From NCBI GenBank assembly GCA_902521655.1, contig CABYSM010000005.1, positions 1 through 57,610 on the forward strand: 57,610 nucleotides of DNA, read 5' to 3'. Made by a program: the position numbers and the translations under genes. Source of the stretch: an uncultured Pelagibacteraceae bacterium. Lineage in GTDB: Bacteria; Pseudomonadota; Alphaproteobacteria; Pelagibacterales; AG-422-B15. A model generated the notes under the pieces. It saw nothing but the letters and a program-made list of their open reading frames with translations. It did not search any database and was not told the origin of the DNA. Below, one piece after another: positions 26,165-44,612 of the stretch (within the stretch, counting starts at the first letter, position 1; the number at the start of each line of letters is the position of its first letter).

Positions 26165-27955
26165 ATGAATAAACAAATAAATAATTTTAATTTTTTTAAT
26201 TTTAGAAATTTATTACTAATCATACTTTCATTCATTTTTATTATACTTTCAAGTATTACACTCATTACTCAAAGATCAAACAATATGGAGACATTGCCTT
26301 ATCTAAACGTACATATTGTTATTTCATCTCTCTTTATATTAGCTTTAGTTGTATCCATAAGTTTTATTATATTTCCAATTATTCTCAGAGTAAGAAGGAA
26401 AAAAATTAGTACTTTAAACAGCAAATTCACTCTTTATTTTATTTCTATTGCATTAACACCAGCAATATTACTTGGTGTATTGGGTTTAGTTTTAATAGAA
26501 CTGGGTATCAACGATTGGTTCAACGATAAAATCAAAAATGTTATTAATAACTCAGTTTTTGTAGCAGAAAGTTATTTAGAAGAGCACAAAGAAACAATTA
26601 AAGGTGACCTTTACGCAATGTCAAACGACCTTAACAATTCGAGTGAAGTATTAACTCAAGATCTATCTAAAATGGTGATAGCATTAAGAACTCAAGCGCT
26701 TATACGGTCTTTACCGGAAACATATATTATAAATAGAAATAGCGATATTTTATTTCAAGCTTTTAAAAATAACATGCCTTTTTATGAACCTCCTTTATCA
26801 TCTTTTGATCGTGTAGATAGTGGCGAAATGACAATTATGTCATCAACACAATTAAATAAAGTTTATGCTATGATAAAGCTTAATAATTTTGATGAGTATT
26901 ACTTATACGCTGGAAGATCAATGGATGGCAATGTGATAAGTGCTTTAAACGATACAGTTTCAGCAAAAAATGAATATATTTTTTTAGAAAAAAGTAGAGA
27001 TAAGATAAGTCTCATATTTATACTACTTTATGTCATAGTATCTTTAATTTTAATTTTAATTGCGATTATAATAGGATTAAATTTTGCAGATAGAATTGTT
27101 AAGCCTATATCAAGTATTATAACTGCAACTAACAATATAAGCAAAGGCCTGTATGATGATAAAATTAAAAAAAATAACGACTACATCGAATTGAATAGAC
27201 TTGCAGATTCATTTAATCAAATGAGTGGAGATATAATCAAGCAAAGAAATCAAATTATAGTTTCTAAAAAACATGAAACTTGGTCGGATATTGCAAGAAG
27301 AATAGCGCACGAAATAAAGAATCCTTTAACTCCAATTCAATTATCAGCGGAACGTCTTCAAAAGAAAACAATAGGATTAAACATTGAAAATAACGAAATA
27401 AACGAATGCATTGATACAATACGTCGTCAAGTCAATGAGATAGGGCACTTGGTAGATGAGTTTTCTAGTTTTGCTAGATTGCCAGATCCAGACTTAAAAA
27501 ATAATAATATAGCTAATACAATGTTAGAAGTTGTATCTGATTACGAAAATGACAACAAAAATATTAGATTCATAAACAAACTTCATTCAAGTCAAATTAA
27601 TGTGAATATAGACAATTCACAAATATCAAGAGTCTTCCAAAATTTAATAGTGAATTCTATTCATTCAATAAGTGAAAGTAAAAACAAGGATGGTGAAATA
27701 ATATATTCATCGTACGAAGTCGATGATAATGTGGTATTATCATTAATAGATAATGGTATTGGACTTAAATATGAAAAAGATGAACTTATAAAGCCTTATT
27801 TTACAACTAAGAAAAAAGTTGGTGGTTCAGGTCTTGGTTTGGCAATTGTAGAAAAAATCTTATTTGATCATCATGCTGATTTTGTTCTAGAAAATAGAAA
27901 TGACGGAAAAGTTGGAGCTGAAGTTAAAATTATTTTTGGAAAAACTATAATATGA
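26165..27955 (+). CDS. ntrY: NtrY-type sensor histidine kinase, PAS domain absent
   Basis: Membrane sensor kinase of the NtrY/NtrX pair, linked in relatives to nitrogen or redox/envelope control. Membrane helices at about 16-35, 50-74 and 88-111, an extracytoplasmic loop, a fourth helix at about 281-303, then HAMP (FADRIVKPISSIITATNNIS), HisKA with phosphoacceptor His382 in RIAHEIKNPLTPIQLSAERL, and a catalytic domain with LIDNGIGL and GGSGLGLAIVEKIL. At 596 residues it is well short of classical NtrY (over 700): HAMP runs straight into HisKA with no PAS domain. Overlaps ntrX by 4 bases. Confidence 0.92.
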   Translation: MNKQINNFNFFNFRNLLLIILSFIFIILSSITLITQRSNNMETLPYLNVHIVISSLFILALVVSISFIIFPIILRVRRKKISTLNSKFTLYFISIALTPAILLGVLGLVLIELGINDWFNDKIKNVINNSVFVAESYLEEHKETIKGDLYAMSNDLNNSSEVLTQDLSKMVIALRTQALIRSLPETYIINRNSDILFQAFKNNMPFYEPPLSSFDRVDSGEMTIMSSTQLNKVYAMIKLNNFDEYYLYAGRSMDGNVISALNDTVSAKNEYIFLEKSRDKISLIFILLYVIVSLILILIAIIIGLNFADRIVKPISSIITATNNISKGLYDDKIKKNNDYIELNRLADSFNQMSGDIIKQRNQIIVSKKHETWSDIARRIAHEIKNPLTPIQLSAERLQKKTIGLNIENNEINECIDTIRRQVNEIGHLVDEFSSFARLPDPDLKNNNIANTMLEVVSDYENDNKNIRFINKLHSSQINVNIDNSQISRVFQNLIVNSIHSISESKNKDGEIIYSSYEVDDNVVLSLIDNGIGLKYEKDELIKPYFTTKKKVGGSGLGLAIVEKILFDHHADFVLENRNDGKVGAEVKIIFGKTII

Positions 27956-29283
27956 AAAATATCTTAGTAATTGATGACGAAATTGATATTTGTAATAATA
28001 TTAAAGCAATTCTTACTGACGAAGGTTTTAATATTCAAATAGCACATAATTCAGATGATGCTTTAAACTATATAAACAAGCATTCCTATAATCTTATAAT
28101 CCTTGATGTTTGGCTGGATAATTCAAAATATGACGGCTTAGAAATTCTTAAACAGATCAGGAAAAACCTAACTATACCGATAATAGTTATTTCTGGACAC
28201 GGAAATATAGAAATGGCGGTTTCTGCAATAAAAGATGGCGCTAATGAATTCATTGAAAAGCCTTTTAATACTGAAAGATTATTACTGTCAGTCAACCGGT
28301 CTATAGAACTTTATGAAGTTAAAGACGAAAATAGGTCTTTAAAAGAAGGAAATGTTTTTGATTATAAATTTATTGGCGAGTCTTCAGCTATTATAAAAAT
28401 TAAGCAACAAATTGCTAAAATTGCACCCACTTTAAGTAGAGTGATGATTTATGGAGATTCAGGAACAGGAAAGGATATCATAGCTAAAGAAATACATAAA
28501 AATTCAACAAATAAAGATGGTCCTTTTGTAATTTTAAATGCAGCACTAATGGACCCTGAAAATTTAGAAAGAGAATTATTTGGAATACAAGATAATAATT
28601 TAAATGAGATTGGACATTTGGAGAAAGCTGAAAATGGAACATTATTTATCGATGAAGTTGGTGAAATGCCTCTACAAACACAAGCTAAGATATTAAGAGT
28701 GCTTACAGATAAAAATTTCACAAAAAAAGGAGGCAACGAATTAATTAAATTGAATTGTAGAATTATATGTTCTTCTACTAAAAATTTAGAGCAATTAACT
28801 AATGAAGGTTCATTTAGAAAAGACTTATTTCATAGACTGAATGTTGTGACTATAAAACTTCCTAATTTAAGTGAGAGGTCTGCAGATATTGACTCATTAA
28901 TAGATTATTTCGCAGAAATATTCTCTAAAGAAAATAATCAAAAAAATACAGATCTAAAGCCTTTAATAAAAACTAAATATATCAATTACGAATGGCCAGG
29001 TAACATAAGAGAATTAAGAAATGTTATTGAAAGATATTCTATTTTAGGTGAAAAATATGATGACAATAATGCAGCAGAGAAACTTGATGATTTTCAAAAT
29101 AAAAATGTTATCTCTTTACCGTTGAGAAATGCACGTAAACTGTTTGAAAAAAACTATCTTCAATCTCAAATTAATAGATTTGATGGAAATATATCAAAAA
29201 CTGCTGCTTTTATAGGAATGGAAAGATCTGCACTACATAGAAAATTAAAACAATTAGGTATTACAGAAGAGGAAAAAAAGTGA
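27952..29283 (+). CDS. ntrX: NtrX-type response regulator (receiver, AAA+, Fis-type HTH)
   Basis: Receiver domain about 1-120 with acidic pocket (VIDDEID) and phosphoacceptor Asp52 (IILDVW). AAA+ domain about 135-360 with Walker A GDSGTGKD and Walker B GTLFIDEVGEMP. C-terminal helix-turn-helix of Fis type (FDGNISKTAAFIGMERSALH). The sigma-54 contact motif GAFTGA is absent: after ELFG the sequence reads IQDNNLNEIGHLEKAENGT. This is the state expected of alphaproteobacterial NtrX, so it may act as an ordinary DNA-binding regulator. Length 443 residues; overlaps trkA (GTGA). Confidence 0.93.
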   Translation: MKNILVIDDEIDICNNIKAILTDEGFNIQIAHNSDDALNYINKHSYNLIILDVWLDNSKYDGLEILKQIRKNLTIPIIVISGHGNIEMAVSAIKDGANEFIEKPFNTERLLLSVNRSIELYEVKDENRSLKEGNVFDYKFIGESSAIIKIKQQIAKIAPTLSRVMIYGDSGTGKDIIAKEIHKNSTNKDGPFVILNAALMDPENLERELFGIQDNNLNEIGHLEKAENGTLFIDEVGEMPLQTQAKILRVLTDKNFTKKGGNELIKLNCRIICSSTKNLEQLTNEGSFRKDLFHRLNVVTIKLPNLSERSADIDSLIDYFAEIFSKENNQKNTDLKPLIKTKYINYEWPGNIRELRNVIERYSILGEKYDDNNAAEKLDDFQNKNVISLPLRNARKLFEKNYLQSQINRFDGNISKTAAFIGMERSALHRKLKQLGITEEEKK

Positions 29284-30671
29284 AAATAATTATATGTGGT
29301 GCTGGAAAAGTAGGAACAACTATAGCACGACACCTTGTTGACCAGGGTAGTGATGTTACAGTGATTGATAGCTCACATAAACTCATTGATGATCTGAGAG
29401 AAAAAGTGGATCTTAAGACTGTTATTGGATCAGCTTCAAATCCATCAGTGCTAAAAAATGCTGGCGCCGAGGACTCTGATATGATTATAGCTGTTACTCT
29501 ACAAGACGAAATAAATATGGTCGCATGTCAAATGGCACATACTTTTTTTAAAATTCCAAGAAAAATTGCTCGTCTAAGAACAGAAGACTTTTTAAATCCT
29601 ATTTGGAGAGATTTGTATAATGCCGATAATATGCCAATTGACCTTATAATAAGTCCAGAATTGGAAGTAGCAAGGTCAATAGAAAGGCAGTTAAAGGCTC
29701 CAGGTGCCTATGATGTTGTTCCTTTTTTGAATGATGAAATTGAACTCTTGAGCTTGGTAATCAACGAAAAGTGTCCTTTAGTTGATACAAGTCTTATAAA
29801 TATACATGAATTATTTCAAGAAAATGCAGATGCTGAAAAAAACCTCAGAGCTTCAATAATAGGAATTAGCAGAGATGAACGACTATTTATACCAAAAAAA
29901 CAAGACACACTAATGCAAGGCGATCATGTTTACATACTGGTTGATAAAAATCATGTGAAAAGAACCATGAGTGCATTCGGATATGATGAAAAGCCAATTA
30001 AAAAAATAATAATCATTGGAGGTGGAAATATCGGCTTCAATTTAGCAAAGGATTTAGAAAAATATCAGTCTGATATATCTGTTAGCGTAGTTGAAAATAA
30101 TGAAGATAGATCAAAATATATTGCTGATCAGCTTTCTGACACTTTAGTTTTAAATGGCGATGGTTTAGATCAAGATTTACTAGATGAGGCCAATATTAAA
30201 GATGCAGACTTATTATTAGCTCTCACAAATGATGACGAAACAAATATCATTATCTCAGCTGTTGCTAGAAAAAATAGGTGCGAGTCAATTATTATTGTTA
30301 ATAATTCAGAATATAACAAACTAAAAGATGTTTTGGGAATCAGTAAAGTTGTTGACCCAAGAAAAATTACAGTGTCAAAAATACTTAAACATATACATAA
30401 AGGAAAAATTGAGTCAGTTTTTGCAATTGACAACAACCAAGCAGAAATTATTCATGCGCAAGTACTTAAAAGCTCAAAATTAATAAATAAAAATATTGAA
30501 GATGCTGATTTTCCAAATGGACTAAGGGTAGGGTTAATTAAGAAAGAAGGCAAAATAATAATCCCTGAAAAAGATACTAAAATTGAAATTCATGACGAAA
30601 TATTATTTTTATGCATGAGAGATGATATTAAAAAAGCAGAAGAACTATTTCAAGTTAGGAGCGAGTATTAA
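29280..30671 (+). CDS. trkA: Trk potassium uptake regulatory protein TrkA
   Basis: Cytosolic peripheral subunit that gates the Trk K+ channel by nucleotide binding. Two tandem RCK units are visible: the first Rossmann fold starts IIICGAGKVGTTIARHLVDQ (residue 3) and the second IIIIGGGNIGFNLAKDL (about 242), each followed by a TrkA-C domain (for example ILVDKNHVKRTMSAFG and ILFLCMRDDIKKAEELF). Length 463 residues. The start is GTG, overlapping ntrX by 4 bases. The TrkH channel gene is not in the window. Confidence 0.95.
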   Translation: MKIIICGAGKVGTTIARHLVDQGSDVTVIDSSHKLIDDLREKVDLKTVIGSASNPSVLKNAGAEDSDMIIAVTLQDEINMVACQMAHTFFKIPRKIARLRTEDFLNPIWRDLYNADNMPIDLIISPELEVARSIERQLKAPGAYDVVPFLNDEIELLSLVINEKCPLVDTSLINIHELFQENADAEKNLRASIIGISRDERLFIPKKQDTLMQGDHVYILVDKNHVKRTMSAFGYDEKPIKKIIIIGGGNIGFNLAKDLEKYQSDISVSVVENNEDRSKYIADQLSDTLVLNGDGLDQDLLDEANIKDADLLLALTNDDETNIIISAVARKNRCESIIIVNNSEYNKLKDVLGISKVVDPRKITVSKILKHIHKGKIESVFAIDNNQAEIIHAQVLKSSKLINKNIEDADFPNGLRVGLIKKEGKIIIPEKDTKIEIHDEILFLCMRDDIKKAEELFQVRSEY

Positions 30672-31522
30672 TGAGTAGAGAGGCATTTGTAAACGGTGAA
30701 TATATAGAATATATTAATTCAAAAGTTCACATAGAAGATAGAGGTTATCAATTTGCCGATGGCGTGTATGAGGTATTTGCAATATTAAATAGTAAAATTG
30801 TAGATTACGAAGGTCATATTAAAAGACTAAATAGATCTCTTAAAGAGTTGAAGATTGCATCACCAATTCAAAAAAAATCATATAAATTTCACATTAATGA
30901 AATTATAAAACGAAATATAATACAAGATGGCTTAGTTTATTTGCAAGTTACGCGTGGCGTTGCCAGTAGAGACTTTAAATTTCCAAAAAATTCTAAAAGT
31001 TCAATTGTTATTATTGGAAAAAATACTCCATCAAATTATTATAATAATAATTTCAATAAAGGAATTAAAGTCAAAACAGCCAAAGATATAAGATGGAAAA
31101 GAGTAGACATTAAATCATTAAATTTACTTCCGCCTGTTTTAGCTAAACAATATGCCGCTGATAATGGTTGTGAAGAAGCATGGCTTTTAGATGATGACGG
31201 ATATATTACAGAAGGAAGTTCAAGTAATGCGTGGATAGTAAAAAATAAAACTGTAATTACTAGACCGGTATCCAGTTCTATACTTAATGGAATAACTCGT
31301 TCAACACTTATCAGTTCCCTATCAAAGGTGGGATATAAATTTATCGAAAGAAAATTTAATATAAATGATATTAAAGATGCGGATGAAGCCTTTATAACTA
31401 GCGCAACGCAGTTTGTTATGCCAGTAATTGCAGTAAATAATATTAAAATAGGTGATGGACGTGTAGGAGAATTTTCGCAATTATTTAAAGAAATTTATTT
31501 TAAGTATATCAGCTTATCTTGA
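30671..31522 (+). CDS. dat: D-amino-acid transaminase-like class IV aminotransferase
   Basis: PLP enzyme of fold type IV; D-alanine transaminase makes D-glutamate/D-alanine for peptidoglycan. Diagnostic segments are FVNGEYIEYINSKVHIEDRG, YQFADGVYEVFAI, YEGHIKRLNRSLKELKI, the PLP lysine in VDIKSLNLLPPVLAKQYA and EEAWLLDDDGYITEGSSSN. Length 283 residues. Branched-chain aminotransferase and aminodeoxychorismate lyase share the fold; the SLNLL-VLAKQ pattern favours D-amino-acid transaminase. It sits between trkA and hflX, coupled to both. Confidence 0.85.
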   Translation: MSREAFVNGEYIEYINSKVHIEDRGYQFADGVYEVFAILNSKIVDYEGHIKRLNRSLKELKIASPIQKKSYKFHINEIIKRNIIQDGLVYLQVTRGVASRDFKFPKNSKSSIVIIGKNTPSNYYNNNFNKGIKVKTAKDIRWKRVDIKSLNLLPPVLAKQYAADNGCEEAWLLDDDGYITEGSSSNAWIVKNKTVITRPVSSSILNGITRSTLISSLSKVGYKFIERKFNINDIKDADEAFITSATQFVMPVIAVNNIKIGDGRVGEFSQLFKEIYFKYISLS

Positions 31523-32592
31523 ATAAAACTATTTCTCATATTGTTCATCTAAATATAGATGCTGATCCTAAATTCATTTCAGAAGAAATGCTTTCTGAAA
31601 TTGAAAATTTAGTAATAAATCTTGATATAACCATTAAAAAAAAAGAAATCATAAAAATAAAAAGAATAAATCCGTCAACTCTGATTGGGGAGGGCAACTT
31701 AGTAAAAATTGATCATGATATTAAGAAAAAAAATATAAATCTGTTAGTTGTGAATAACAACTTAACGCCCGCTCAACAAAAAAATTTAGAAAACAGACTA
31801 AAAGTAAAGGTAACTGATAGAACTGGCATTATACTAGAGGTTTTTGCTAGAAGAGCAAAAACTAATGAAGGCAAAATGCAGGTGCAGCTTGCTGAGTTAA
31901 TATATAGGAAATCTAGACTAGTTAGGGCTTGGACTCATTTAGAACGGCAGAGAGGCGGTACAACCTTTATTGGAGGCCCAGGAGAGCTTCAAATTGAGTT
32001 AGATCGTCGTTTAATACAAGAAAAAATTCTAAATATTAAAAAAAGACTAAGTAAAGTTAAACGTAGAAGGCATGTACAGAGGAATCTAAGGAAAAACAAT
32101 AATTTTAAAACAGCAGCTCTAATTGGATATACAAATGCAGGTAAAACATTGCTATTTAATAAATTAACTAAAAAAAACCAATCAAGCAGATCAAGACTAT
32201 TTGAAACTTTGGATACTAAAATTAGCAGGGTATATTTAGGAGCAAATAAATACATAGGACTTATAGATACCGTTGGCTTCATAAACAATATTCCAACGTC
32301 ATTAATAGAGTCATTTAAAGCTACGCTAGAGGAGGTTAATAAAGCTGATATTTTACTAAATATTGTCGATGTTAACGATTTAAATGCAAATCAAAAAATA
32401 AAAGTAACAAAAGGTATACTTATAGATACTGGTGTTGAAAAAAATAAAATTTCAGAAATGATAACTATCTACAATAAAATTGATATAAAAGGATCCAAGA
32501 GTTTATATCAGCATAAGAAAAATTATATTAGTGCATTAACAGGTGAGGGTGTTTCTGATTTGAAGAGGACCTTAAAAAACTCGCTTATTTAA
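31519..32592 (+). CDS. hflX: GTPase HflX
   Basis: Ribosome-associated GTPase that splits stalled 70S particles. The N-terminal domain has NNNLTPAQQKNLENRLKVKV, DRTGIILEVFARRAKTNEGK and the Arg/Gly-rich ERQRGGTTFIGGPGELQIE. The G domain has G1 GYTNAGKT, G3 DTVGF, NNIPTSLIESFKATLEEV and G4 NKID. Length 357 residues, somewhat short for the family. The start is TTG, overlapping the dat stop (TTGA). In relatives hfq lies just upstream; here there is no room for it. The 3' end overlaps a convergent gene by 8 bases. Confidence 0.95.
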   Translation: MNKTISHIVHLNIDADPKFISEEMLSEIENLVINLDITIKKKEIIKIKRINPSTLIGEGNLVKIDHDIKKKNINLLVVNNNLTPAQQKNLENRLKVKVTDRTGIILEVFARRAKTNEGKMQVQLAELIYRKSRLVRAWTHLERQRGGTTFIGGPGELQIELDRRLIQEKILNIKKRLSKVKRRRHVQRNLRKNNNFKTAALIGYTNAGKTLLFNKLTKKNQSSRSRLFETLDTKISRVYLGANKYIGLIDTVGFINNIPTSLIESFKATLEEVNKADILLNIVDVNDLNANQKIKVTKGILIDTGVEKNKISEMITIYNKIDIKGSKSLYQHKKNYISALTGEGVSDLKRTLKNSLI

Positions 32593-33328
32593 CTTCATTT
32601 ATAAATAAAGTAATAGCTCCGTTGTTTGCTTCGTAACCATAAAATTCTTTCTTATCATTATTATTATATATCACTTTAATATAATCAGATGACGCAAAAA
32701 CATCTTCGTCTTCATCAATTTTATAGCCGCCAAGCTTTATTTGATTTGCTTTACAATATATGAGGTTATTTGAAATAATTTTCTCAGCTTTAGTAAACGA
32801 AACATCATATCTGCGTTTACCATCAAAAATTCTAAAAGTTTTCTCACAGTCATTAAGATTATCATAGTTTAATATATTTAAAAAAAAGCTAGAAGGATCG
32901 ATTGTATTAATAAGCATATCTTCTTCAATTTTAGTTAATTTGTTTATGTCAGGCTCTGGAATTAAGTTAAGCTCGGAGATGTATGAGTCATTGTACTTTA
33001 TCTCAACAAATTTTTCTTTTTCTTTTCTTGTATACCTATATTTATAATGAAGCGGCTTATAAAAATTATCAATAATGCCTACGATGCTTCCATCTCCATT
33101 AACTTTATTGATAAAATCAACTATATTATTTGTTCTAATGCTAAATTTATACTTATAACTATCACCTTGGATTTCTAGAGTTGTATCAATACTCATAACA
33201 GGTATTTTGGGTAGAATTGATAATTTAGCCTCAACAACAAAATTTCTTTCTTCAATAAATGTATCTGCTAGAGTAGTAGATGATATAAATAATGATAAGA
33301 TAATAAATATACGACCAGTTAACAGCAT
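32585..33328 (-). CDS. DUF3108-type exported protein
   Basis: Signal peptide at residues 1-21 (hydrophobic core IFIILSLFISS, cleavage after TLA). The mature protein is beta-rich and matches the DUF3108 pattern as I remember it: VEAKLSILPKIPVMSIDTTL, YKYKFSIRTNNIVDFINK, FYKPLHYKYRYTRKEKEKFV and the C-terminal IKVIYNNNDKKEFYGYEANN. Function is unknown; such proteins are periplasmic or envelope-associated. Its start codon lies four bases from the start of the divergent glycosyltransferase-like gene, and its 3' end overlaps hflX. Confidence 0.7.
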   Translation of the reverse strand: MLLTGRIFIILSLFISSTTLADTFIEERNFVVEAKLSILPKIPVMSIDTTLEIQGDSYKYKFSIRTNNIVDFINKVNGDGSIVGIIDNFYKPLHYKYRYTRKEKEKFVEIKYNDSYISELNLIPEPDINKLTKIEEDMLINTIDPSSFFLNILNYDNLNDCEKTFRIFDGKRRYDVSFTKAEKIISNNLIYCKANQIKLGGYKIDEDEDVFASSDYIKVIYNNNDKKEFYGYEANNGAITLFINEVK

Positions 33329-33332
33329 ATAA

Positions 33333-34388
33333 ATGAAAATACTTCATATATCAAATTTTGTCCAAAAGCAAAAAGGAAGATTACAGTGGAATCATTGTTT
33401 TAAAATAAATAACGGTTTCATCAGAAATGGTCATAACGTATGTACATTTAGCGATAGAGATATGAGTCGGATGAATTTGATAAATAAATTAAATAATAAC
33501 AAAAACTTAAATAAATCTTTGATTGAAACATTCAAAAATTACTATCCTGACCTAGTAGTTCTAGGTCATGCAGATAAAATTCATAATGAAACTTTAAATG
33601 AATTTAGATCTATCAATAAAGATATAAAGATTATTGAATGGAACGTAGATAATTATTATTTAGATAATACAGAGGATAAATTTAAAAAAAGATCTCATTT
33701 AATTGATGCATTCTTCATTACAAATGCAGATGAAAATTTAAAATCGTGCTTAATTCAAGACAATTCTATTTCTTTTTTCCCAAATATCTTTGATAAATCA
33801 ATTGAACGTATGAGGATTTTTGACTTAGCCGAATATACATATGATGTATTTTATGCGCTTAGTTTCGGTGTTGGTTCCGGAAAAATTAAAGCGAATAAAT
33901 CAGATTATGATAGAGAAGTCTACCTTGATTTTATTAGACATAATTACCCTGATATTAAAACAAATTTTTTTGGTTATGACAATATTCAGCCTGTATGGGG
34001 AGCTGATTTTGAAAGAGAAATTTGCAAATCACTAATTAGTTTAAACCTAAGTAGAAAACCTCATCTTAAATATTATAGTTCAGACAGAATATCTCAATAT
34101 TTAGGAAATGGGTCATGTATTTTTGTTGATAAAAATTCAAGATTAGAAGATCTATTTACAAGAGACGAGGTTGTTTATTTTGATTCTGAGGATTTAAATG
34201 AATTTGGTATTAAGATTAATTATTATCTAGATAATGAAGATGAAGCAAAGAGAGTAGCTAAGAAAGGATGGGAGAGGGGTCATAAAAATTATAATGAAAA
34301 AATTGTAACTAATTATTTCTTAGATATAGCTTTTAACAATAAACCATCCAGCGATTATAGTTGGCCTATTATTCAATATTTCTTATAA
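33333..34388 (+). CDS. Glycosyltransferase-like protein (CgeB-type C-terminal domain)
   Basis: 351 residues with a GT-B look: the N-terminus MKILHISNFVQ begins a Rossmann-like fold and the C-terminal half ends with the pattern RISQYLGNGSCIFVDKN, then VVYFDSEDLNEFGIKINYYL and AKKGWERGHKNYNEKIV, resembling the sugar-nucleotide-binding end of the Glyco_trans_1_2/CgeB group. No signal peptide or membrane helix, so cytosolic. The substrate is not predictable. It is a single + strand gene in a minus-strand neighbourhood. Its stop codon lies inside the left arm of a terminator hairpin. Confidence 0.65.
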   Translation: MKILHISNFVQKQKGRLQWNHCFKINNGFIRNGHNVCTFSDRDMSRMNLINKLNNNKNLNKSLIETFKNYYPDLVVLGHADKIHNETLNEFRSINKDIKIIEWNVDNYYLDNTEDKFKKRSHLIDAFFITNADENLKSCLIQDNSISFFPNIFDKSIERMRIFDLAEYTYDVFYALSFGVGSGKIKANKSDYDREVYLDFIRHNYPDIKTNFFGYDNIQPVWGADFEREICKSLISLNLSRKPHLKYYSSDRISQYLGNGSCIFVDKNSRLEDLFTRDEVVYFDSEDLNEFGIKINYYLDNEDEAKRVAKKGWERGHKNYNEKIVTNYFLDIAFNNKPSSDYSWPIIQYFL

Positions 34389-34420
34389 GCCCTAATATTA
34401 AAAAAAGGGCTTATAATTTT
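34383..34420. terminator. Intrinsic terminator hairpin between convergent genes
   Basis: A perfect 11-base stem, TTATAAGCCCT (34383-34393) with AGGGCTTATAA (34406-34416), a 12-base A-rich loop, then TTTT. It follows and partly contains the stop of the + strand glycosyltransferase-like gene and lies 10 bases past the 3' end (34426) of the minus-strand membrane-protein gene, so it may serve both. It is the only obvious G+C-containing terminator stem I found in the window. Confidence 0.8.
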
Positions 34421-34425
34421 AGCTT

Positions 34426-34881
34426 TTAATTGTTTTTTGGACCCCAAATAGTTCCTAAAATCATTACAAGAACTACCAATAGGAATAATGAACCTGCTAT
34501 ACCTGGATACGCCAGTGGTTCACTAAAATTTGAGTAATACTCAAGAAATCCCTCAGAAACAGCAGACATCTCATATCCTTCTGGCATAACTTCTTTAATT
34601 CTTTCTAATGTTGTATAAGTTCCAGTAATTATTCCTTGATTTACAGTCCATGCAATATAAGTCCCGTAAACAACAAGAACTCCAAACAGTGATGACAATG
34701 TTTTAGTTGCTACATTCATATCAGATCTGTCTCGAACCTGTATTGCCATTCTTAATGATAGCCAAATCGCAAGTATTGTTCCGATAAACACCATTGCATT
34801 AGCAATTCTTCCCATTTGATATATTGTAAATGTAGATATTTCAGGTTGAGCTAGCTGGTATAATTGCATTGCTTCTTCCAT
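34426..34881 (-). CDS. Unidentified three-helix membrane protein, likely strongly translated
   Basis: Not recognised. The 151 residues have a short N-terminus (MEEAMQLYQLAQPEISTFTI), then hydrophobic segments at about 28-46, 66-82 and 127-146 and a hydrophilic central loop (about 88-118) rich in acidic and aromatic residues; the C-terminus is WGPKNN. There is no cleavable signal peptide. An AAAGGAG ribosome-binding site sits 6 bases before the ATG, far stronger than those of its neighbours. It has about 170 bases of A+T-rich upstream DNA, a terminator at its end and apparently richer G+C codons. These point to a monocistronic, well-expressed gene. It lies among surface-polysaccharide genes but has no glycosyltransferase or flippase motif. 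Confidence 0.85.
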   Translation of the reverse strand: MEEAMQLYQLAQPEISTFTIYQMGRIANAMVFIGTILAIWLSLRMAIQVRDRSDMNVATKTLSSLFGVLVVYGTYIAWTVNQGIITGTYTTLERIKEVMPEGYEMSAVSEGFLEYYSNFSEPLAYPGIAGSLFLLVVLVMILGTIWGPKNN

Positions 34882-35051
34882 AATTTCTCCTTTGTTAAAT
34901 TTTCAGATAGAGTGTATTAGTTTGGCAAAATTTAAATATTAAGTATTATGTATATTTTTAATTCGTATAATATATATTATGTTAAATTAGATAAATATAT
35001 ATAATACAATGATTTATATTATAAGTATTACATATAAAGTAAATTGTCAGT
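34882..35051 (-). promoter_or_regulatory. A+T-rich upstream region of the 151-residue membrane protein
   Basis: This 170-base stretch separates the gene ending at 35052 from the one starting at 34881, both on the minus strand. It holds the AAAGGAG ribosome-binding site close to the start codon, a perfect 14-base A+T palindrome at 34967-34980 and many TATA-like words, so a promoter is likely but no single -35/-10 pair stands out. No tRNA, riboswitch fold or additional open frame was seen. Confidence 0.5.
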
Positions 35052-36029
35052 TTAATTATATATGTTATTGATTTTATACATTATTTTTAAAAAAGTTTTA
35101 TTTAAGTCTAATGACTTGAATATAAATTGGTAATAACCATTGGTATATGGTTTAAATTCAGAAAATGCATTTCTGGTTATTGTTCTATCAAATATATCAA
35201 TAATATTTTTATTATAATAGCCTGCAATACAAGAAATGGCGCCATGTGGGCTAATAATTAACTCTGAATCCCCTATTTCTTTCATTAAACTTTCTGCATC
35301 TACAGGCCCAAGAAATTTAATGTTATGGTTATTTTTAAAGGCATTAACCAGCTCTTTGCTTGAGCTGTTAAGTTCTATGTCAGTACTAATTTTAATGTAT
35401 ATATTAAAATTTCTTACTAATTTAGAAAAAAAATTATTAAACTGATCTATATTGTCATTAATATTTCCAAATATCTCAGATTTGTAATGAAAAAGAACAT
35501 TAAGTCTTTTTCCTTTTGAGTCATATTTTAAATAATCATTGCGTTTTTTTGATTTAGTAATTGGCATTACATTCTCAAGTAATTTTTGTTCCATTTCATA
35601 AATAGGTAATTTTTTTATATTTTTCGACCTATCATTAACAATAAATTTAAACAAATATTTACGCAGAAAAGTACTTGGCCTTTTTCGTTTCACTCCATCA
35701 ACACATAAAGCAAGAAATTTTATTTTTCGAAAAATTAAAGGGAGATAAAAATAAAAATTTTTAGGCGATAATATAAAAACATACTCATAATCATTTTGCA
35801 TTAATTTATAAAATAATTTTAATTTCTCTACTATGGACAAATTATAATTCACCTCTTGTAATAGCAATTCTTTCGAATTTAATACTTTTGAAAATCTAAT
35901 ATTTATTTTAGATAAATATATTTCTATTATATGATTAGAGTAATATTCTTTTATGTACTGTATATTTCTCAAGGAATGAAAAAAATCACCAACTCTATCA
36001 TTTTTTAAGATAAGAATTTTTTTATCCAT
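35052..36029 (-). CDS. Glycosyltransferase family 9-like (heptosyltransferase-type)
   Basis: 325 residues resembling ADP-heptose:LPS heptosyltransferases: N-terminal ILILKNDRVGDFFHSLRNI (the conserved DxIGD-like loop and first Rossmann helix) and the C-terminal donor-site segment SELIISPHGAISCIAGYYNK followed by NIIDIFD. The middle is divergent and lysine-rich. It probably adds a sugar to the LPS core or a surface glycan at the cytosolic face. It is the last gene of the minus-strand polysaccharide cluster and overlaps the upstream glycosyltransferase by 25 bases. Confidence 0.75.
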   Translation of the reverse strand: MDKKILILKNDRVGDFFHSLRNIQYIKEYYSNHIIEIYLSKINIRFSKVLNSKELLLQEVNYNLSIVEKLKLFYKLMQNDYEYVFILSPKNFYFYLPLIFRKIKFLALCVDGVKRKRPSTFLRKYLFKFIVNDRSKNIKKLPIYEMEQKLLENVMPITKSKKRNDYLKYDSKGKRLNVLFHYKSEIFGNINDNIDQFNNFFSKLVRNFNIYIKISTDIELNSSSKELVNAFKNNHNIKFLGPVDAESLMKEIGDSELIISPHGAISCIAGYYNKNIIDIFDRTITRNAFSEFKPYTNGYYQFIFKSLDLNKTFLKIMYKINNIYN

Positions 36030-37012
36030 ATATCAGCTATGAAATCCCAATTTTTAAAACCTCTTCTTTTGAACATTTGACGTCTTATCTTATTGTAAAA
36101 TTCATCATCGAATAAGAGCATTTCAAGATATTTTGCAAATTCCTCATCATTCTTTGCAATAAACCCAGTTTCATTATGTATTACCCTATCTTCAACTGAT
36201 CCAATTCCATAAGTAACAATTGGAACGCACATTTGCACTGCCTCTTCTACAGTTAATACCCAAATATCAGATTTATGACCTGTATATGCAAATACTCTTG
36301 TATTTTTTAATTCATTTATAAGGTCATCTCTTGAACCAAATTTTCTTTCATAAATATTTGATTCTTTCATTTCATCCGAATATTCAATTAAATTTGGGTT
36401 AATAAAAAGCTTTGCTTTTCCATTTTTATTATTAAAGCTCTTAGTCCAGATATCAATAAGCCAGTCTAAATTTCTATGCGATCTAACATTGTTAAGCGCA
36501 TATGGGCTTGGTATATTTTCTAAATCAACTTTTTCAGTGTAAAATCTCGGATCTACAGAAAGAGATATCATATGTTTACCATACATAGATGTTAAATAAC
36601 TTCTTTTATAAAATTGATAATTACACATGGTAACTACTTCAGGCTTGTGCTTTAGAAATGGTAATAATTGTTTTTTTCTTAAAAATTTTTCAAAAGGCTG
36701 CAACGAATTTGACCATACAACTTTCTTTTTTGCTGATATCTTATTAAATAAGTTTGCATTTGATATTGCAACACATAAATCATAATGTGTCTCTTGATGA
36801 ACATTTTTATTACTATAGATGACACCGTTACATGAAACATCTTCATTTATTTCAGTAAGTACTTTGACATAGATATTATTTTTAACCAGGCTCTCAGCGA
36901 GTAATATTAACGAGCTTTCTGTTCCTCTAACTTTAGTGGTGTTGAGGTCTAATCCTGTAAAGTCAGAGTTAGAGTTATCTATAAATAATATAGACTTATC
37001 ATTTAATGCCAT
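36005..37012 (-). CDS. Glycosyltransferase family 4-like protein
   Basis: 335 residues with a GT-B pattern: N-terminal KVRGTESSLILLAESLVKNN is the usual acceptor-side loop and helix, and the C-terminal half has the nucleotide-sugar binding region WVLTVEEAVQMCVPIVTYGI (E-x7-E family motif) followed by GSVEDRVIHNETGFIAKNDE. No membrane helices. The specific sugar is unknown; adjacency to gmd and a ColD homologue suggests a GDP-linked deoxysugar donor. The ATG overlaps the gmd stop as TAATG. Confidence 0.8.
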   Translation of the reverse strand: MALNDKSILFIDNSNSDFTGLDLNTTKVRGTESSLILLAESLVKNNIYVKVLTEINEDVSCNGVIYSNKNVHQETHYDLCVAISNANLFNKISAKKKVVWSNSLQPFEKFLRKKQLLPFLKHKPEVVTMCNYQFYKRSYLTSMYGKHMISLSVDPRFYTEKVDLENIPSPYALNNVRSHRNLDWLIDIWTKSFNNKNGKAKLFINPNLIEYSDEMKESNIYERKFGSRDDLINELKNTRVFAYTGHKSDIWVLTVEEAVQMCVPIVTYGIGSVEDRVIHNETGFIAKNDEEFAKYLEMLLFDDEFYNKIRRQMFKRRGFKNWDFIADIWIKKFLS

Positions 37013-38031
37013 TAAGCATTTTTTATTTGATTCTCATCATAATCGACCATTAATTTTACTAATTGTTTTAAACTTGTTTTTGGTTTCCATTTTAGCTGAC
37101 GCTTAGCTTTACTTGGATTACCTATTAACAAATCAACTTCGGCTGGTCTAAAAAATTCTTTATCAATTTTCATGATAGTTTTGCCATCTTCTTTATTAAC
37201 TACTCTTTCGTTCATCCCCTTGCCCACCCATTTATAATCAAATTTTAAATAACTGAGTGTTAAATCAATAAATTGTCTTACGCTATGTGTTTTTCCAGTT
37301 GAAATAACAAAATCATCTGGATTCTTTTTCTGAAGCATTAACCACATAGCATAAACATAATCTCCAGCAAAACCCCAATCTCTTTTGGCATTAATATTGC
37401 CAACTCTTAAAGTTTCTTTAGACCCGTATTTTATCCTTGTTAGAGTGGATGTGATTTTTTTTGTTACAAACTCGCTGCCCCTCAACGGCGACTCATGATT
37501 AAATAAAATGCCAGAAGATGCGTGGATATTGTATGATTCTCTGTAGTTAATTGTTATCCAGTGAGAGAAGATCTTTGAAACCCCGTATGGACTTCTGGGA
37601 TAAAATGGTGTGTTTTCTGATTGGGGAATTTGTGCAACCTTTCCAAACATTTCGGATGTAGAAGCTTGATAAAACTTTATTTTCTTATTAATTGAATTTA
37701 TCGAGTCAAGAATTCTTAAGGTCCCAAGAGAATTAATATCGGTAGTAACAATAGGAACTTGAAAGGAAGTCGGCACGAAACTTTGTGCAGCCAGATTATA
37801 GATTTCGTGAGGTTTAGTCTCTTTTATTACATTCTGAATATTACTAAGTTCTAATAAATCGAAGTCATAAAATTTTATTTTATTATACACATTAAGATAT
37901 TTAAGGTTAACAAATTTCTCTGAAGTGCTTCTCCTAACTGTTCCAAATACTTTGTATCCTTTATCGATTAAAAGTTTTGACAAGTAGGCACCATCTTGAC
38001 CAGTTATACCTGTAATTAATGCTCGCTTCAT
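37012..38031 (-). CDS. gmd: GDP-mannose 4,6-dehydratase
   Basis: Converts GDP-D-mannose to GDP-4-keto-6-deoxy-D-mannose. Extended SDR enzyme with NADP-binding TGITGQDGAYLSKLLIDKGY, VFGTVRRSTSEKF, IYNLAAQSFVPTSFQVP, ASTSEMFGKVAQIPQSE, the catalytic YGVSK, and GILFNHESPLRGSEFVT, all diagnostic of GMD. The start is taken at ATG 38031 (MKRALITG, 339 residues); a TTG-initiated frame from 38058 would overlap the preceding gene. Its product is the substrate expected for the ColD-like enzyme encoded just upstream. Confidence 0.95.
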   Translation of the reverse strand: MKRALITGITGQDGAYLSKLLIDKGYKVFGTVRRSTSEKFVNLKYLNVYNKIKFYDFDLLELSNIQNVIKETKPHEIYNLAAQSFVPTSFQVPIVTTDINSLGTLRILDSINSINKKIKFYQASTSEMFGKVAQIPQSENTPFYPRSPYGVSKIFSHWITINYRESYNIHASSGILFNHESPLRGSEFVTKKITSTLTRIKYGSKETLRVGNINAKRDWGFAGDYVYAMWLMLQKKNPDDFVISTGKTHSVRQFIDLTLSYLKFDYKWVGKGMNERVVNKEDGKTIMKIDKEFFRPAEVDLLIGNPSKAKRQLKWKPKTSLKQLVKLMVDYDENQIKNA

Positions 38032-38041
38032 ATTTATTTTA

Positions 38042-39226
38042 TCAAATGTTTTTTTCAAAATCTTTAATTAGACAATGTAGCCAATTTATCTCATTTGATA
38101 AATCTCTAAAATCATTTCCAACGAAGAACCCATTTTGATGTATCTCATCAGACACAGATAGATCTCCACAAACTTCATAATCTAAGAATTTAATTACTGG
38201 ATTTTTAGTAAAGTTGCCAGCAACTATTGGCCTACATTCAATATTATTTTTAATTAAAATATTAACAAGGCTGTCTCTCTGTCCAGACAATGAATTAGTT
38301 AAAATTAGTGAAAATCCAAACCAAGAAGAAAATTGAGTTTCTTGCTGGATTCTAATGTTAGCTTCATTTTCAAATAATGCTTTAAATATTTGAGCGTTTT
38401 TTCTTCTTTTATCGACAAAGCTAGACAATTTTCTTAATTGAACAGAACCTATGGCACCACTCATTTCTAAGGGCCTTATGTTATAACCTGGCACAACAAA
38501 ATTAAATGAGTCATAAAAAGGATTTCCAGTTTTTTTCACGATAGTATTATCATTTGGTAAGTCTCTTATCCAACCATGAGCTCTTAGCGATACACAAAGC
38601 TCATAAAGATTTTTATCATTTGTAAGTACCATGCCACCTTCCATTGTCTGCATATGATGTGAAAAAAAGAAACTAAATGAACCCATCAAGCCACAAGTGC
38701 CAGTATACTTATCATGGTACTTTGCCCCTAAACTCTCACAATTATCCTCAATTAATATAATCTCGTTCTTTTCACATATAGATTTTAAATCCTCTAAATC
38801 AGTTGGATTTCCTAAAAGATTCACAGCAAAAATTAATTTTGTTTTTTGGTTAATTGCCTTAATGACTTCTTTAGGATCAATATTTAATGTGTTTCTATCT
38901 ATATCTACAAATACAAGTTTAAGTCCGTATTGATTAACTGGATAGTATGTTGTACTCCAACTAACCGCCGGTACAATCACCTCATCTCCTTTTTTTAGGT
39001 CGTAGTTATTAGAATAGAATAATGATGCTATCATTAGTAAGTTTGCTGAAGAACCTGAATTTACCATAATTGCATAATCAGATTGAAAATAATCAGCAAA
39101 TTCCTCTTCAAATTTTTTAACTTTCGGACCCATCGTAAATTGATTAGATTTAATAACATCATTTATAGCAACTATTTCTTCCTCACCCCAAGAATCTGAT
39201 GCTAAATTGTACTTAGTATTCTTCAT
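38042..39226 (-). CDS. colD: ColD-like GDP-4-keto-6-deoxy-D-mannose 3-dehydratase (DegT/AHBA fold)
   Basis: PLP-dependent sugar dehydratase of the aminotransferase fold. The usual PLP-anchoring Lys is replaced by His: the segment SFSFFFSHHMQTMEGGMV has His at 190/191, the hallmark of ColD, which deoxygenates C3 instead of transaminating. Other segments matching ColD as remembered are LIEDNCESLGA, LRAHGWIRDLP, VPGYNIRPLEMSGAIGSVQL, ECRPIVAGNFTKNP and NGFFVGND. With gmd next door, the product should be GDP-4-keto-3,6-dideoxymannose, the precursor of colitose. 394 residues. RfbH-type CDP-sugar dehydrases share the His but act with a partner reductase not seen here. Confidence 0.88.
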   Translation of the reverse strand: MKNTKYNLASDSWGEEEIVAINDVIKSNQFTMGPKVKKFEEEFADYFQSDYAIMVNSGSSANLLMIASLFYSNNYDLKKGDEVIVPAVSWSTTYYPVNQYGLKLVFVDIDRNTLNIDPKEVIKAINQKTKLIFAVNLLGNPTDLEDLKSICEKNEIILIEDNCESLGAKYHDKYTGTCGLMGSFSFFFSHHMQTMEGGMVLTNDKNLYELCVSLRAHGWIRDLPNDNTIVKKTGNPFYDSFNFVVPGYNIRPLEMSGAIGSVQLRKLSSFVDKRRKNAQIFKALFENEANIRIQQETQFSSWFGFSLILTNSLSGQRDSLVNILIKNNIECRPIVAGNFTKNPVIKFLDYEVCGDLSVSDEIHQNGFFVGNDFRDLSNEINWLHCLIKDFEKNI

Positions 39227-39599
39227 AAGATTTTACTTCACTAATCAATGAGTTTGTTTTTATATTGATTTCATTTTTTAAAAATGCCCTTTTATCATTC
39301 ATATGATAAACTTTACGTGCATAGTTTATGAAATCTTTTTTGAATAACTTGTTCTTTTCGAAAATTCTTAATTTGTCTTCAACGTTCCATAGTTGTAAAT
39401 TAATATTTTTTAACTGCTTTATTGTAGGCGCCAATTTTCTTCTATTAATTCTTTTTGTTAATACAACCTTTTTTAACAGTGAGAGTTCTTGATTTACAAT
39501 TTTTAGTTTAGTCTTATCTTTTATCTTTAATTTTTTGATTTCAAGAATGGTTATTTTATCAAAAAGCTCACCTATAGATGCTGGTAAATTAATTTTCAT
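39213..39599 (-). CDS. DUF6165-type small protein in polysaccharide cluster
   Basis: 128 residues, no signal peptide or membrane helix, rich in Lys/Leu/Ile and predicted mostly helical. The N-terminus MKINLPASIGELFDKITILEIKK fits the DUF6165 family, which is found among surface-polysaccharide genes; its function is not known. The 3' end overlaps the colD start by 14 bases and it starts three bases after the tatD stop, so it marks the join between housekeeping and sugar genes. Confidence 0.65.
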   Translation of the reverse strand: MKINLPASIGELFDKITILEIKKLKIKDKTKLKIVNQELSLLKKVVLTKRINRRKLAPTIKQLKNINLQLWNVEDKLRIFEKNKLFKKDFINYARKVYHMNDKRAFLKNEINIKTNSLISEVKSYEEY

Positions 39600-39602
39600 T
39601 AT

Positions 39603-40376
39603 TTAGTATGCTCTTTGAAATAAATTAAAAAAGTTTTTTGTAGTAATAACAGAGAAATCTTTATAACTGAGATTAAACATTTTTGAGACATAATCAACAG
39701 TATGAGTTAAATACGCAGGCTCATTCACCTTACCTCTCATAGGAACAGGTGCTAAATATGGAGAATCAGTCTCAACGAGTATTTTATCCAACGGAATATT
39801 TTTTATTGTTTCCCTCAATTTAGTTGAATTTTTAAATGTTACGATACCACTTAAGGAAAAGTAAAAATCATAAGGCAATAAACTCTCCATGAACTCTAAT
39901 GAACCTGTAAAGCAATGAATAACTCCTGAGAATTCTTGTTTCTGGTAGTGATTTTTAATTATTTCAAGTGTATCTTTTTCTGCATCACGCATGTGGACAA
40001 TTAAAGGTAATTTTAGTTCTTGAGCAATTTCAATATGTTTTATGAAGCTATTAATTTGAGTATTTCGATCTGAATTATTGTAATAAAAATCTAAACCAGT
40101 TTCACCGATGCCTACTACTTTTTTATTTTTACACAAGTCAAATATTATTTTTTTTATTTCATCATTCATGCTGTGTGATTCATGCGGATGTATGCCAAGC
40201 GAGCAAAATATATTTTCATAATTGTTAGAAATTTCAATTAATGATCCAAATTCATCAAACTTTGTTGAAATATTAAGCAATTTAAGTACTTCATTTTTTG
40301 ATGCATTTAAAATTATTTTATCTAATAGTTCAGTATTATTTTCGTGCATTAAATGGCAGTGGCTATCAATTATCAT
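39603..40376 (-). CDS. tatD: TatD-family metal-dependent DNase/hydrolase
   Basis: TIM-barrel metal hydrolase; TatD proteins have 3'-5' exonuclease activity on single-stranded nucleic acid. Metal ligands visible: IDSHCHL at the N-terminus, CSLGIHPHES, GETGLDFYY, PLIVHMRDAEKDTLEII, GVIHCFTGS and LVETDSPYLAPVPMRGK. Length 257 residues. Start overlaps metG by 11 bases; metG-tatD and holB-tmk form a conserved alphaproteobacterial block. Confidence 0.95.
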   Translation of the reverse strand: MIIDSHCHLMHENNTELLDKIILNASKNEVLKLLNISTKFDEFGSLIEISNNYENIFCSLGIHPHESHSMNDEIKKIIFDLCKNKKVVGIGETGLDFYYNNSDRNTQINSFIKHIEIAQELKLPLIVHMRDAEKDTLEIIKNHYQKQEFSGVIHCFTGSLEFMESLLPYDFYFSLSGIVTFKNSTKLRETIKNIPLDKILVETDSPYLAPVPMRGKVNEPAYLTHTVDYVSKMFNLSYKDFSVITTKNFFNLFQRAY

Positions 40377-41898
40377 GATCGATCCTTGAAAATAAATGAT
40401 TTATTTCACCTAAATTATTACCACCTATTAATGTTAATTCTTCTTGTTCAAAGCTAAAATTTTCAATACGCACTCCAAGCATAGTAAGTATTTTATTTGA
40501 AGTATCTGGCATAATGGGATTAATCAAAAACGCGATCTTTTTAATGCTTTCGGCAGTAACAGCTAGTGTATCAGAGAATTTATCCATATCTTTATCAAAT
40601 AATTCCCAAGGCTTATTATCATTAAAGAATTTATTTACTTCATTAACATATGACCATACTAATTTAATGTATTCGTGTAATTTGTGACTATCCACTAATA
40701 ACGAACCGTCATTTATAATATTAACATACATTGAAATAAGTTTATTATTTGATACTTCACTTTTTATTTCTGGAATTATAGAATTAAGTTTTTTTTCTAT
40801 CATTGTAAGAGATCTTTGACACAGGTTTCCTAGGTCATTTACTAAATCACTATTTATTCTATTGATTAAAGCAAATTTGGAAAAATCACCATCATTCCCA
40901 AATGGTACTTCACGTAATACAAAATACCTAAACTGATCGAGTCCAAATTCATTTATTATATCAATTGGATCTATCGCATTACCTAAAGACTTAGAAATTT
41001 TCTGACCTTCATTTGTCCACCATCCATGTGCATATATTTTTTTCGGTAATCTTAAATCAGCTGCCATTAAGAAAGCTGGCCAATATACTGCGTGGTGACG
41101 AAGTATGTCTTTGCCAACAATGTGAGTTACATTATCCCAATAATCACTAATATTTTTTTCCTCATTATTCAAGTAATTAACCCCATTTGCATAACATGTT
41201 AAGGCATCTAGCCATACATACATTATATGTTTGTTGTCTGTAGGCGTCTGAATTCCCCATTTAAATGAAGTACGTGAAACCGAAAGATCATTTAAACCAG
41301 ACTCTACAAATTTGATCACTTCGTTTCTTTTAGAAACAGGACTAATAAAGTCTTTATCGTTATTGTATAGATCTAAAAGCTTATCACCCCACTCTGATAG
41401 TTTAAAAAAATAAGATTTTTCAGAAATCCAATCGACGGTGCCGTTTGTGATAGTTTTAAATGTACCATCTCCAGATTTAACAAGATCTTTTTCGTTATAA
41501 AAAGTTTCATCACTGACTGAATACCAACCCTCGTATTCGCCCAAATAAATATGACCCCTATCATAAAGTCTGTCCCATAAATATTTAGCTCCATCTATGT
41601 GTCTATCTTCAGTGGTCCTTATGAAATCGTTATTAGATAAATTGAGCGTTTTTGTAAGATCACGAAAAATCTGAGAATTTTGATCGCATAATTCTATAGG
41701 GGTAACTCCATTTTTCTCAGCTGCTTTTTGAATTTTCAGTCCATGTTCGTCAGTGCCTGTTTGAAACCTTACATCAAATCCCTCAAGCCTTTTAAATCTT
41801 GCAATACAATCTGTTGCAATAGATGTATACGCATGACCAATATGTGGCTTGTCATTAACGTAATAAATTGGTGTTGTTATGTAATATTTATTATTCAT
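40366..41898 (-). CDS. metG: Methionyl-tRNA synthetase
   Basis: Class I aminoacyl-tRNA synthetase. HIGH motif in YYVNDKPHIGHAYTSIA near residue 18, the KMSKS-like motif in GQKISKSLGNAIDP near residue 300, and the conserved HIVGKDILRHHAVYWPAFLM. The connective-peptide region (YEGWYSVSDETFYNEKDL) has no zinc-binding cysteines, as in the zinc-free short form. At 510 residues it lacks the C-terminal EMAP-like tRNA-binding domain. Overlaps holB by 8 and tatD by 11 bases. Confidence 0.97.
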   Translation of the reverse strand: MNNKYYITTPIYYVNDKPHIGHAYTSIATDCIARFKRLEGFDVRFQTGTDEHGLKIQKAAEKNGVTPIELCDQNSQIFRDLTKTLNLSNNDFIRTTEDRHIDGAKYLWDRLYDRGHIYLGEYEGWYSVSDETFYNEKDLVKSGDGTFKTITNGTVDWISEKSYFFKLSEWGDKLLDLYNNDKDFISPVSKRNEVIKFVESGLNDLSVSRTSFKWGIQTPTDNKHIMYVWLDALTCYANGVNYLNNEEKNISDYWDNVTHIVGKDILRHHAVYWPAFLMAADLRLPKKIYAHGWWTNEGQKISKSLGNAIDPIDIINEFGLDQFRYFVLREVPFGNDGDFSKFALINRINSDLVNDLGNLCQRSLTMIEKKLNSIIPEIKSEVSNNKLISMYVNIINDGSLLVDSHKLHEYIKLVWSYVNEVNKFFNDNKPWELFDKDMDKFSDTLAVTAESIKKIAFLINPIMPDTSNKILTMLGVRIENFSFEQEELTLIGGNNLGEINHLFSRIDHDN

Positions 41899-42844
41899 AT
41901 TTTAGCTTATGAAATAAAGAAATAACTATATTTTCAAAATCAAGATTAAGGTTCATATTGTTTTTATTAAATGATTCTATTATTGTATATACATTCAGCA
42001 ATCTGATTACTAATTTATTTTCATTACTATAACAAAGTGTTTTAACCTCATTACTTATCAATAATTGTAAATAGTTTAAGAAAACTGGAATGACCTGTTC
42101 AATATTTTTAAATTTTTGCAAATAGTCAATATAATGACTAGCTGTATTTGATTTTATCTTGTTTTGATTGTTTAAAAGTGCTTTGAAGTGATCATTAATT
42201 TCATAAAAATTAAATTCTATAAATTTTTTTGTTAAGAACGATGATCCATTTGTAATTTTATAAAGGTAATTTAGGTATTCTTCATTTTCTGAATCTTTAT
42301 AAAAATTTATATAATCGTCATAACTTAACTTTCCAAAAAAAATTCTGTGTGATCTTGAAACTATTGTTTTGAGACATCTTGTTTTATTATGATTAACTAT
42401 AATAAAATGATTATTTTTATTTGGTTCTTCAATTATTTTTAATATTGAGTTGGCCGCGTCTAAAGAAAAATCATCTATTAAATTTATTATACAAATTCTT
42501 TTTTGACTTACTTCATCTTTCGTTGAAAAAAAATGGTTAATATGTTTAATATCCTCTCTGTAAATATTTTTTTTAAATCTTTGTTTGTCTTCAAGAAAAA
42601 TTGGTTCAATTTTTAATAAAAATTGTGTTTCTTGGTAGTGAGAATTGTATATAGACTCTTTAAATTCATTATAGTCTTGAATTAACTTCTTACTTATAAC
42701 TAGTGAAGCAAAATTATTGGCAATATTTGTGATAATATCAACGTCTTGTCCAGTAAGTATAATTGAATTAGGTAATTGTGATTTATATAATTTGTATAAA
42801 ACTCTGAGTTCATTTGAATAAATATCATTATTATTTTTTTGCAT
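41891..42844 (-). CDS. holB: DNA polymerase III delta-prime subunit (divergent)
   Basis: Clamp-loader subunit of the AAA+ fold. The conserved DDFSLDAANSILKIIEEPNK, followed by HFIIVNHNKTRCLKTIVSRS (sensor 1 / SRC-like Arg), identifies the delta-prime/tau family. The Walker A region is degenerate (ILTGQDVDI), as is usual for the non-hydrolysing delta-prime subunit. 317 residues with a long, very A+T-rich C-terminal half. Position between tmk and metG is the standard one, which supports the call. Confidence 0.87.
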   Translation of the reverse strand: MQKNNNDIYSNELRVLYKLYKSQLPNSIILTGQDVDIITNIANNFASLVISKKLIQDYNEFKESIYNSHYQETQFLLKIEPIFLEDKQRFKKNIYREDIKHINHFFSTKDEVSQKRICIINLIDDFSLDAANSILKIIEEPNKNNHFIIVNHNKTRCLKTIVSRSHRIFFGKLSYDDYINFYKDSENEEYLNYLYKITNGSSFLTKKFIEFNFYEINDHFKALLNNQNKIKSNTASHYIDYLQKFKNIEQVIPVFLNYLQLLISNEVKTLCYSNENKLVIRLLNVYTIIESFNKNNMNLNLDFENIVISLFHKLKYE

Positions 42845-43463: not shown

Positions 43464-43466
43464 AAC

Positions 43467-44603: not shown

Positions 44604-44612
44604 AGAACATTA

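Follow-up and report, generated by a model that had tools for sequence, protein, structure and literature searches.

A predicted three-helix membrane protein of an unnamed alphaproteobacterial family, encoded beside dif in a possible replacement-type island of a SAR11 lineage

The ORF at positions 34426-34881 raises two questions: what kind of protein does it encode, and does the long intergenic region in front of it serve to regulate it? A sequence-only reading of the window, by which we mean the whole stretch of 57,610 nucleotides that was analysed, had described the product as a three-helix membrane protein of no known family. It had also credited the gene with signs of high expression, namely a uniquely strong ribosome-binding site, a private upstream region, G+C-rich codons and a strong terminator, and had proposed a new envelope or energy-related component. 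The ORF is a genuine gene. The features discussed below are collected in Table 1.

Table 1. Positions of the membrane-protein gene and of the features around it in the window
Feature	Position	Strand	Remarks
Variable island around dif	32585..39226	.	sugar and envelope genes
Convergent glycosyltransferase gene (PF13524)	33333..34388	+	two allele classes
Hairpin between the convergent genes	34383..34416	.	11 bp; dG -14.7 kcal/mol, z -2.4
Membrane-protein gene	34426..34881	minus	151 aa; predicted TM at aa 29-47, 62-80 and 127-145
Shine-Dalgarno sequence AAAGGAG	34887..34893	minus	7-nt match
Chromosomal dif site (assigned), AATTCGTATAA-TATATA-TTATGTTAAAT	34960..34987	+	28-mer, 11-6-11
XerC arm of dif	34960..34970
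Centre of dif	34971..34976
XerD arm of dif	34977..34987
CAAT/CAGT element	35007..35010	+	~20 bp beyond the XerD arm

The hydropathy profile of the protein contains the three hydrophobic segments listed in Table 1, in line with the three helices proposed earlier. Of the two loops, that joining the first two segments bears the positive charges, and that joining the last two is acidic. By the positive-inside rule, this arrangement predicts a three-helix inner-membrane protein with its N-terminus outside and its C-terminus inside. The charge pattern is common to four types of the protein (types A, C and E and a relative from family f50); the first hydrophobic segment of a relative from f20 falls below the cut-off. 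The AlphaFold model has a mean pLDDT of 81 and contains long helices at residues 2-51, 57-98 and 128-146 as well as a short helix at residues 107-117. M1, W40, L41, R44, A46 and W146 are invariant across 25 members from the SAR11 family, and R44, K60 and S106 are invariant in a wider homolog set. The role of these few conserved residues (W40, L41, R44, A46, K60, S106 and W146) looks structural. Since dN/dS amounts to 0.04-0.07 inside types A, B, C and E, purifying selection on the membrane protein within these types is strong.

Profile and structure-based searches gave no clear match to a known family, which bears out the earlier reading on this point. None of the sequence families of Pfam, NCBIfam, PHROG and the PDB was matched by the 151-amino-acid protein, and no Pfam or NCBIfam membrane-protein family scored above its curated cut-off in the profile searches. 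The best NCBIfam match, which was insignificant (E 0.3), was to MnhG of Mrp antiporters, a small three-helix membrane subunit. The two proteins are alike in size, but the match reached 10.9 bits against a family cut-off of 156 bits. PADLOC detected no family beyond chance: one of 18 members matched a restriction enzyme at E 0.0018, and this match ran over the membrane helices. The PDB profile search returned only weak matches to photosystem I PsaB, with E values of 0.01 or worse and confined to one hydrophobic stretch. Foldseek with the AlphaFold model found generic helical bundles alone (best E 0.24), and the VIA-align Z scores of up to 9.2 lie within the range expected for any helical bundle. 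Relatives of the membrane protein were found neither in phage records nor, using profile A1, in viral contigs. Literature searches turned up nothing usable on SAR11 with dif, on AG-422-B15 or on highly expressed hypothetical SAR11 membrane proteins.

Relatives do exist within the Alphaproteobacteria. Genome searches detected them in three genera (g1, g7 and g8) of the same SAR11 family, a profile search added relatives in three other alphaproteobacterial families (f50, f20 and f161), and the relatives found by iterated profiles measure 127-151 amino acids. The alphaproteobacterial three-helix family to which the protein belongs has no name as yet. A phylum-wide profile search added nothing credible, only a single weak match with internal stops, and the matches in f2, the second SAR11 family, were all marginal and ran over stretches with stop codons. 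The relatives are often paralogs, with tandem copies in G080, G448 and G205. Several of the copies in f50 adjoin TonB-dependent receptor genes or an EthD-like gene, neighbours that may point to transport. The types of the membrane gene are ~25-40% identical to one another. In the phylogenetic tree, the long types group with the f50 proteins (support 91/96), separate from the short type E, and a single clade of all SAR11 members, when forced, was not rejected (p-AU 0.10). An ancient, deep paralogy of the membrane gene inside SAR11 is likely.

The expression signals proposed for the gene fared differently. Its Shine-Dalgarno sequence is the strongest of the 58 ORFs in the window, as had been claimed, and it alone attains a 7-nt match. 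A purine-rich Shine-Dalgarno sequence (AGGAG, AAGGAG, AGGGAG etc.) occupies the matching place in nearly all homologs. The claim of a G+C-rich codon choice had to be given up. The gene ranks 5th of 58 in total G+C and 3rd at codon positions 1+2, but its third-position G+C of 0.207 is average (rank 35 of 58; median 0.211), and the richness therefore stems from amino-acid composition and not from synonymous choice. Codon adaptation was discarded as evidence of expression because it is uninformative here, ribosomal genes scoring no higher than average. As for the strong terminator, a stable hairpin is indeed present between the convergent genes; its role as a terminator is less clear, since it shares bases with the stop codon of the glycosyltransferase gene, goes unflagged in the terminator scan and is not followed by a clear U-tract on the strand of the membrane gene (minus). 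The promoter scan gave sites no more numerous than in shuffled sequence. A transcription unit of its own is supported for the gene, and high abundance of its product is possible judging from these signals.

The intergenic region upstream of the gene is 170 bp long (34882-35051), as stated in the sequence-only reading. It is not a private regulatory region, because it holds dif. The 28-mer AATTCGTATAATATATATTATGTTAAAT, which lies in this intergenic region 78 bp upstream of the membrane gene, is identical to E. coli dif at 23 of 28 bases; the next best position in the window reaches 19 of 28. Its XerD arm, TTATGTTAAAT, is the same as that of E. coli dif, and it differs from the published dif of Francisella tularensis (CATTCGTATAATATATATTATGTTAAAT; PMC2731167) at the first base only. 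Like the published dif of the XerC/XerD system (Carnoy and Roten 2009, PMC2731167), the site is 28 bp long, organized as 11-6-11, AT-rich and palindromic. It also shares with published dif sites (PMC2731167) its intergenic location, its single copy and its position at the GC-skew switch: the 1.0-Mb assembly (76% complete) matches it exactly at a single place, and the cumulative GC skew peaks at 32-36 kb, where the 28-mer lies. Five genomes from the genus each contain two PF00589 matches, that is, Xer-type tyrosine recombinases. Judged by its sequence, copy number and position, the 28-mer is the dif site of the chromosome, at which finished chromosomes would separate. Pelagibacter ubique, a member of the same order, is stated to have no dif/Xer system (PMC2731167); in contrast, the lineage of the window has kept a canonical dif. 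Unlike in the published description of dif (PMC2731167), a CAAT/CAGT element is conserved in this lineage ~20 bp past the XerD arm (C in 22, A in 23 and A in 24 of 29 dif loci). It is conserved even at dif loci without the membrane gene and is possibly an accessory element of dif.

A membrane-family gene adjoins dif in 25 of the 29 dif loci of dif-bearing relatives. In the other four relatives (G034, G060, G062 and G068; loci L057, L058, L060 and L080) dif is kept and the membrane gene is gone, so that the conservation of the gene, which mattered to the sequence-only reading, is incomplete. These four relatives keep the neighbouring glycosyltransferase gene, too. In G034 (locus L080), a leader with ribosome-binding site and terminator remains after loss of the ORF. 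The same loci bear on a further explanation, in which the upstream palindrome would be a private operator or promoter of the membrane gene. A nearly invariant palindrome indeed lies ~80-170 bp upstream of the start codon in homologous loci, and its 20 core bases hardly vary in front of 25 homologs, which speaks for an operator. But the palindrome matches published dif, is single copy and sits at the skew switch, and it persists where the gene has been lost. Because dif is retained without the membrane gene, it is not the operator of that gene; we rejected this explanation, which retains hardly any probability.

The gene, the dif match and the glycosyltransferase gene are absent together from three near-complete genomes of the genus (G020, G015 and G024), and assembly gaps at the terminus may therefore affect the presence/absence counts. 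Eight further genomes of the genus likewise jointly miss all three, and the contigs of G032 and G080 end right beside the dif locus. The terminus of genomes without a dif match is either divergent or prone to assembly breaks.

In the sampled genomes of the sister family f2, most of them single-contig, the dif 28-mer type was not found. We infer that f2 represents the Pelagibacteraceae proper. Most of these genomes carry one, more divergent tyrosine recombinase, the exceptions being one genome without a recombinase, G036 and G038 with a second one, and G045 with two further fragments. The f2 recombinase retains R, K, HxxR, H and Y and is located within ~3 kb of the local GC-skew maximum in all six genomes tested. 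A conserved palindrome (GATAACNATTAATTATC core in most) is found ~25-36 bp upstream of its start in 12 of 12 loci (L156-L162 and L164-L168). XerS and XerH are single-recombinase resolution systems. The f2 recombinase and its palindrome look like a candidate system of this kind, which would sit in a group published as lacking dif/Xer (PMC2731167: Pelagibacter ubique). Homologs of the glycosyltransferase encoded at 33333-34388 occur near the f2 terminus recombinase in L159 (G157, at a distance of ~150 bp) and in L141/L142 (G048). In L155 892-2013 (G000 contig C24), the start of an ATP synthase gamma subunit runs in frame into the C-terminal portion of a Xer recombinase; this fusion is probably a chimeric assembly join.

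In the comparison of eight neighbourhoods, conserved blocks on the left (27952-32592) and on the right (39213-46447) flank a variable stretch around dif. Its left limit lies in or beside the DUF3108 gene and its right limit just before 39213. Within this island, different types of the membrane gene occupy one slot beside dif. The glycosyltransferase falls into two classes, ~50% identical, each of which is found with several membrane-gene types. Types C and E each occur with both classes, and these discordant pairings of membrane-gene type and glycosyltransferase class indicate that the parts of the island have been reassorted. Replacement islands of aquatic prokaryotes carry genes for exposed structures and are exchanged by homologous recombination (PMC4033161). 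As in such replacement flexible genomic islands, the surroundings of dif hold different genes of similar function at the same place between conserved flanks, and the mixed pairings may be signs of exchange by recombination. The dif island differs from the published islands (PMC4033161) in its very small size (<~7 kb) and in having dif inside; moreover, one of its parts is a membrane protein that is restricted to the lineage and comes in several diverged types. Overall, the dif neighbourhood fits a replacement-type genomic island. Since the relatives in f50, f20 and f161 have no recognisable dif beside them, this island context does not extend to the family as a whole.

The explanation we favour, and to which we give about an even chance of being right, is that the product is a small inner-membrane protein belonging to an unnamed family and that the gene forms an exchangeable part of the envelope-gene island around dif. 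The gene would be well translated from its own promoter, and the protein would belong to the envelope as a small, perhaps oligomeric component in the inner membrane, serving as a structural partner or transporter subunit; we do not propose a catalytic activity. Versions of the slot would pass from one lineage to another by homologous recombination, in the manner of the replacement genomic islands of aquatic bacteria. The invariant dif region would flank the exchange at one end, and either the core blocks or the conserved terminal part of the convergent gene would do so at the other. A version could be swapped jointly with the neighbouring envelope genes or independently of them. The envelope context of the earlier proposal is supported; the sequence and structure searches gave no match to a protein of known function.

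Because of the TonB-receptor neighbours in f50, the main rival is a transport or energy component of the inner membrane, either a small oligomeric carrier or an accessory subunit of a larger transporter. The three-helix topology, the tandem paralogs and the E-like copies that immediately precede TonB-dependent receptor genes in G448, G523 and G235 would agree with such a function. However, no transporter family is similar at usable scores, no conserved buried charged pair suggests ion or substrate transport, and the receptor gene is absent beside the membrane gene in the SAR11 loci read. We regard the transport reading as unlikely, although it deserves to be kept in mind. A membrane protein against phages or superinfection, encoded in a small defence slot at the terminus, appears more doubtful still. 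Variable presence, many diverged types per slot and neighbouring sugar and envelope genes are what one might expect of it, but PADLOC gave no match beyond chance, relatives are absent from phage genomes and, with profile A1, from viral contigs, and purifying selection within types is strong.

Two further explanations start from the closeness of the gene to dif. The gene might have entered at dif by XerCD recombination, comparable to integrative elements or dif modules; that it directly adjoins dif in 25 loci, and that dif stays in genomes without it, would be in accordance with a Xer-mobilised cassette. Yet the window and each locus examined contain one dif-like site, with no second site bordering the gene, and the leader with its ribosome-binding site and terminator that outlasts the ORF in G034 argues for a deletion and not for Xer excision, which makes such a cassette very improbable. 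Alternatively, the protein might act at the terminus itself, by tethering dif or by assisting FtsK and XerCD, as its conserved position beside dif and its predicted membrane location could suggest. A role at dif is unlikely, because homologs occur elsewhere without an adjoining recognisable dif and dif persists without the gene: four genomes keep the site alone, neither the tandem copies of G080 nor the relatives from other families lie beside it, and SAR11 members have been swapped between diverged types. Of tethering or assistance to the recombinases we think there is only the slightest chance.

Taken together, the locus yields a new small membrane-protein family with homologs beyond SAR11. 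It also places in SAR11 a lineage that retains dif/XerCD, though the best-known member of the order is reported to be without one. A third result is a tiny envelope island with dif at its centre and with mixed gene combinations. As a caution for similar cases, conservation of a sequence in front of a gene does not in itself make it the regulator of that gene. A more far-reaching idea, which we consider rather unlikely as it stands, is that dif serves as a fixed anchor around which diverged versions of the membrane protein and the glycosyltransferase are continually reassorted at the SAR11 terminus. If true, such dif-anchored reassortment would allow the properties of the envelope to change while the resolution of the chromosome stays undisturbed.
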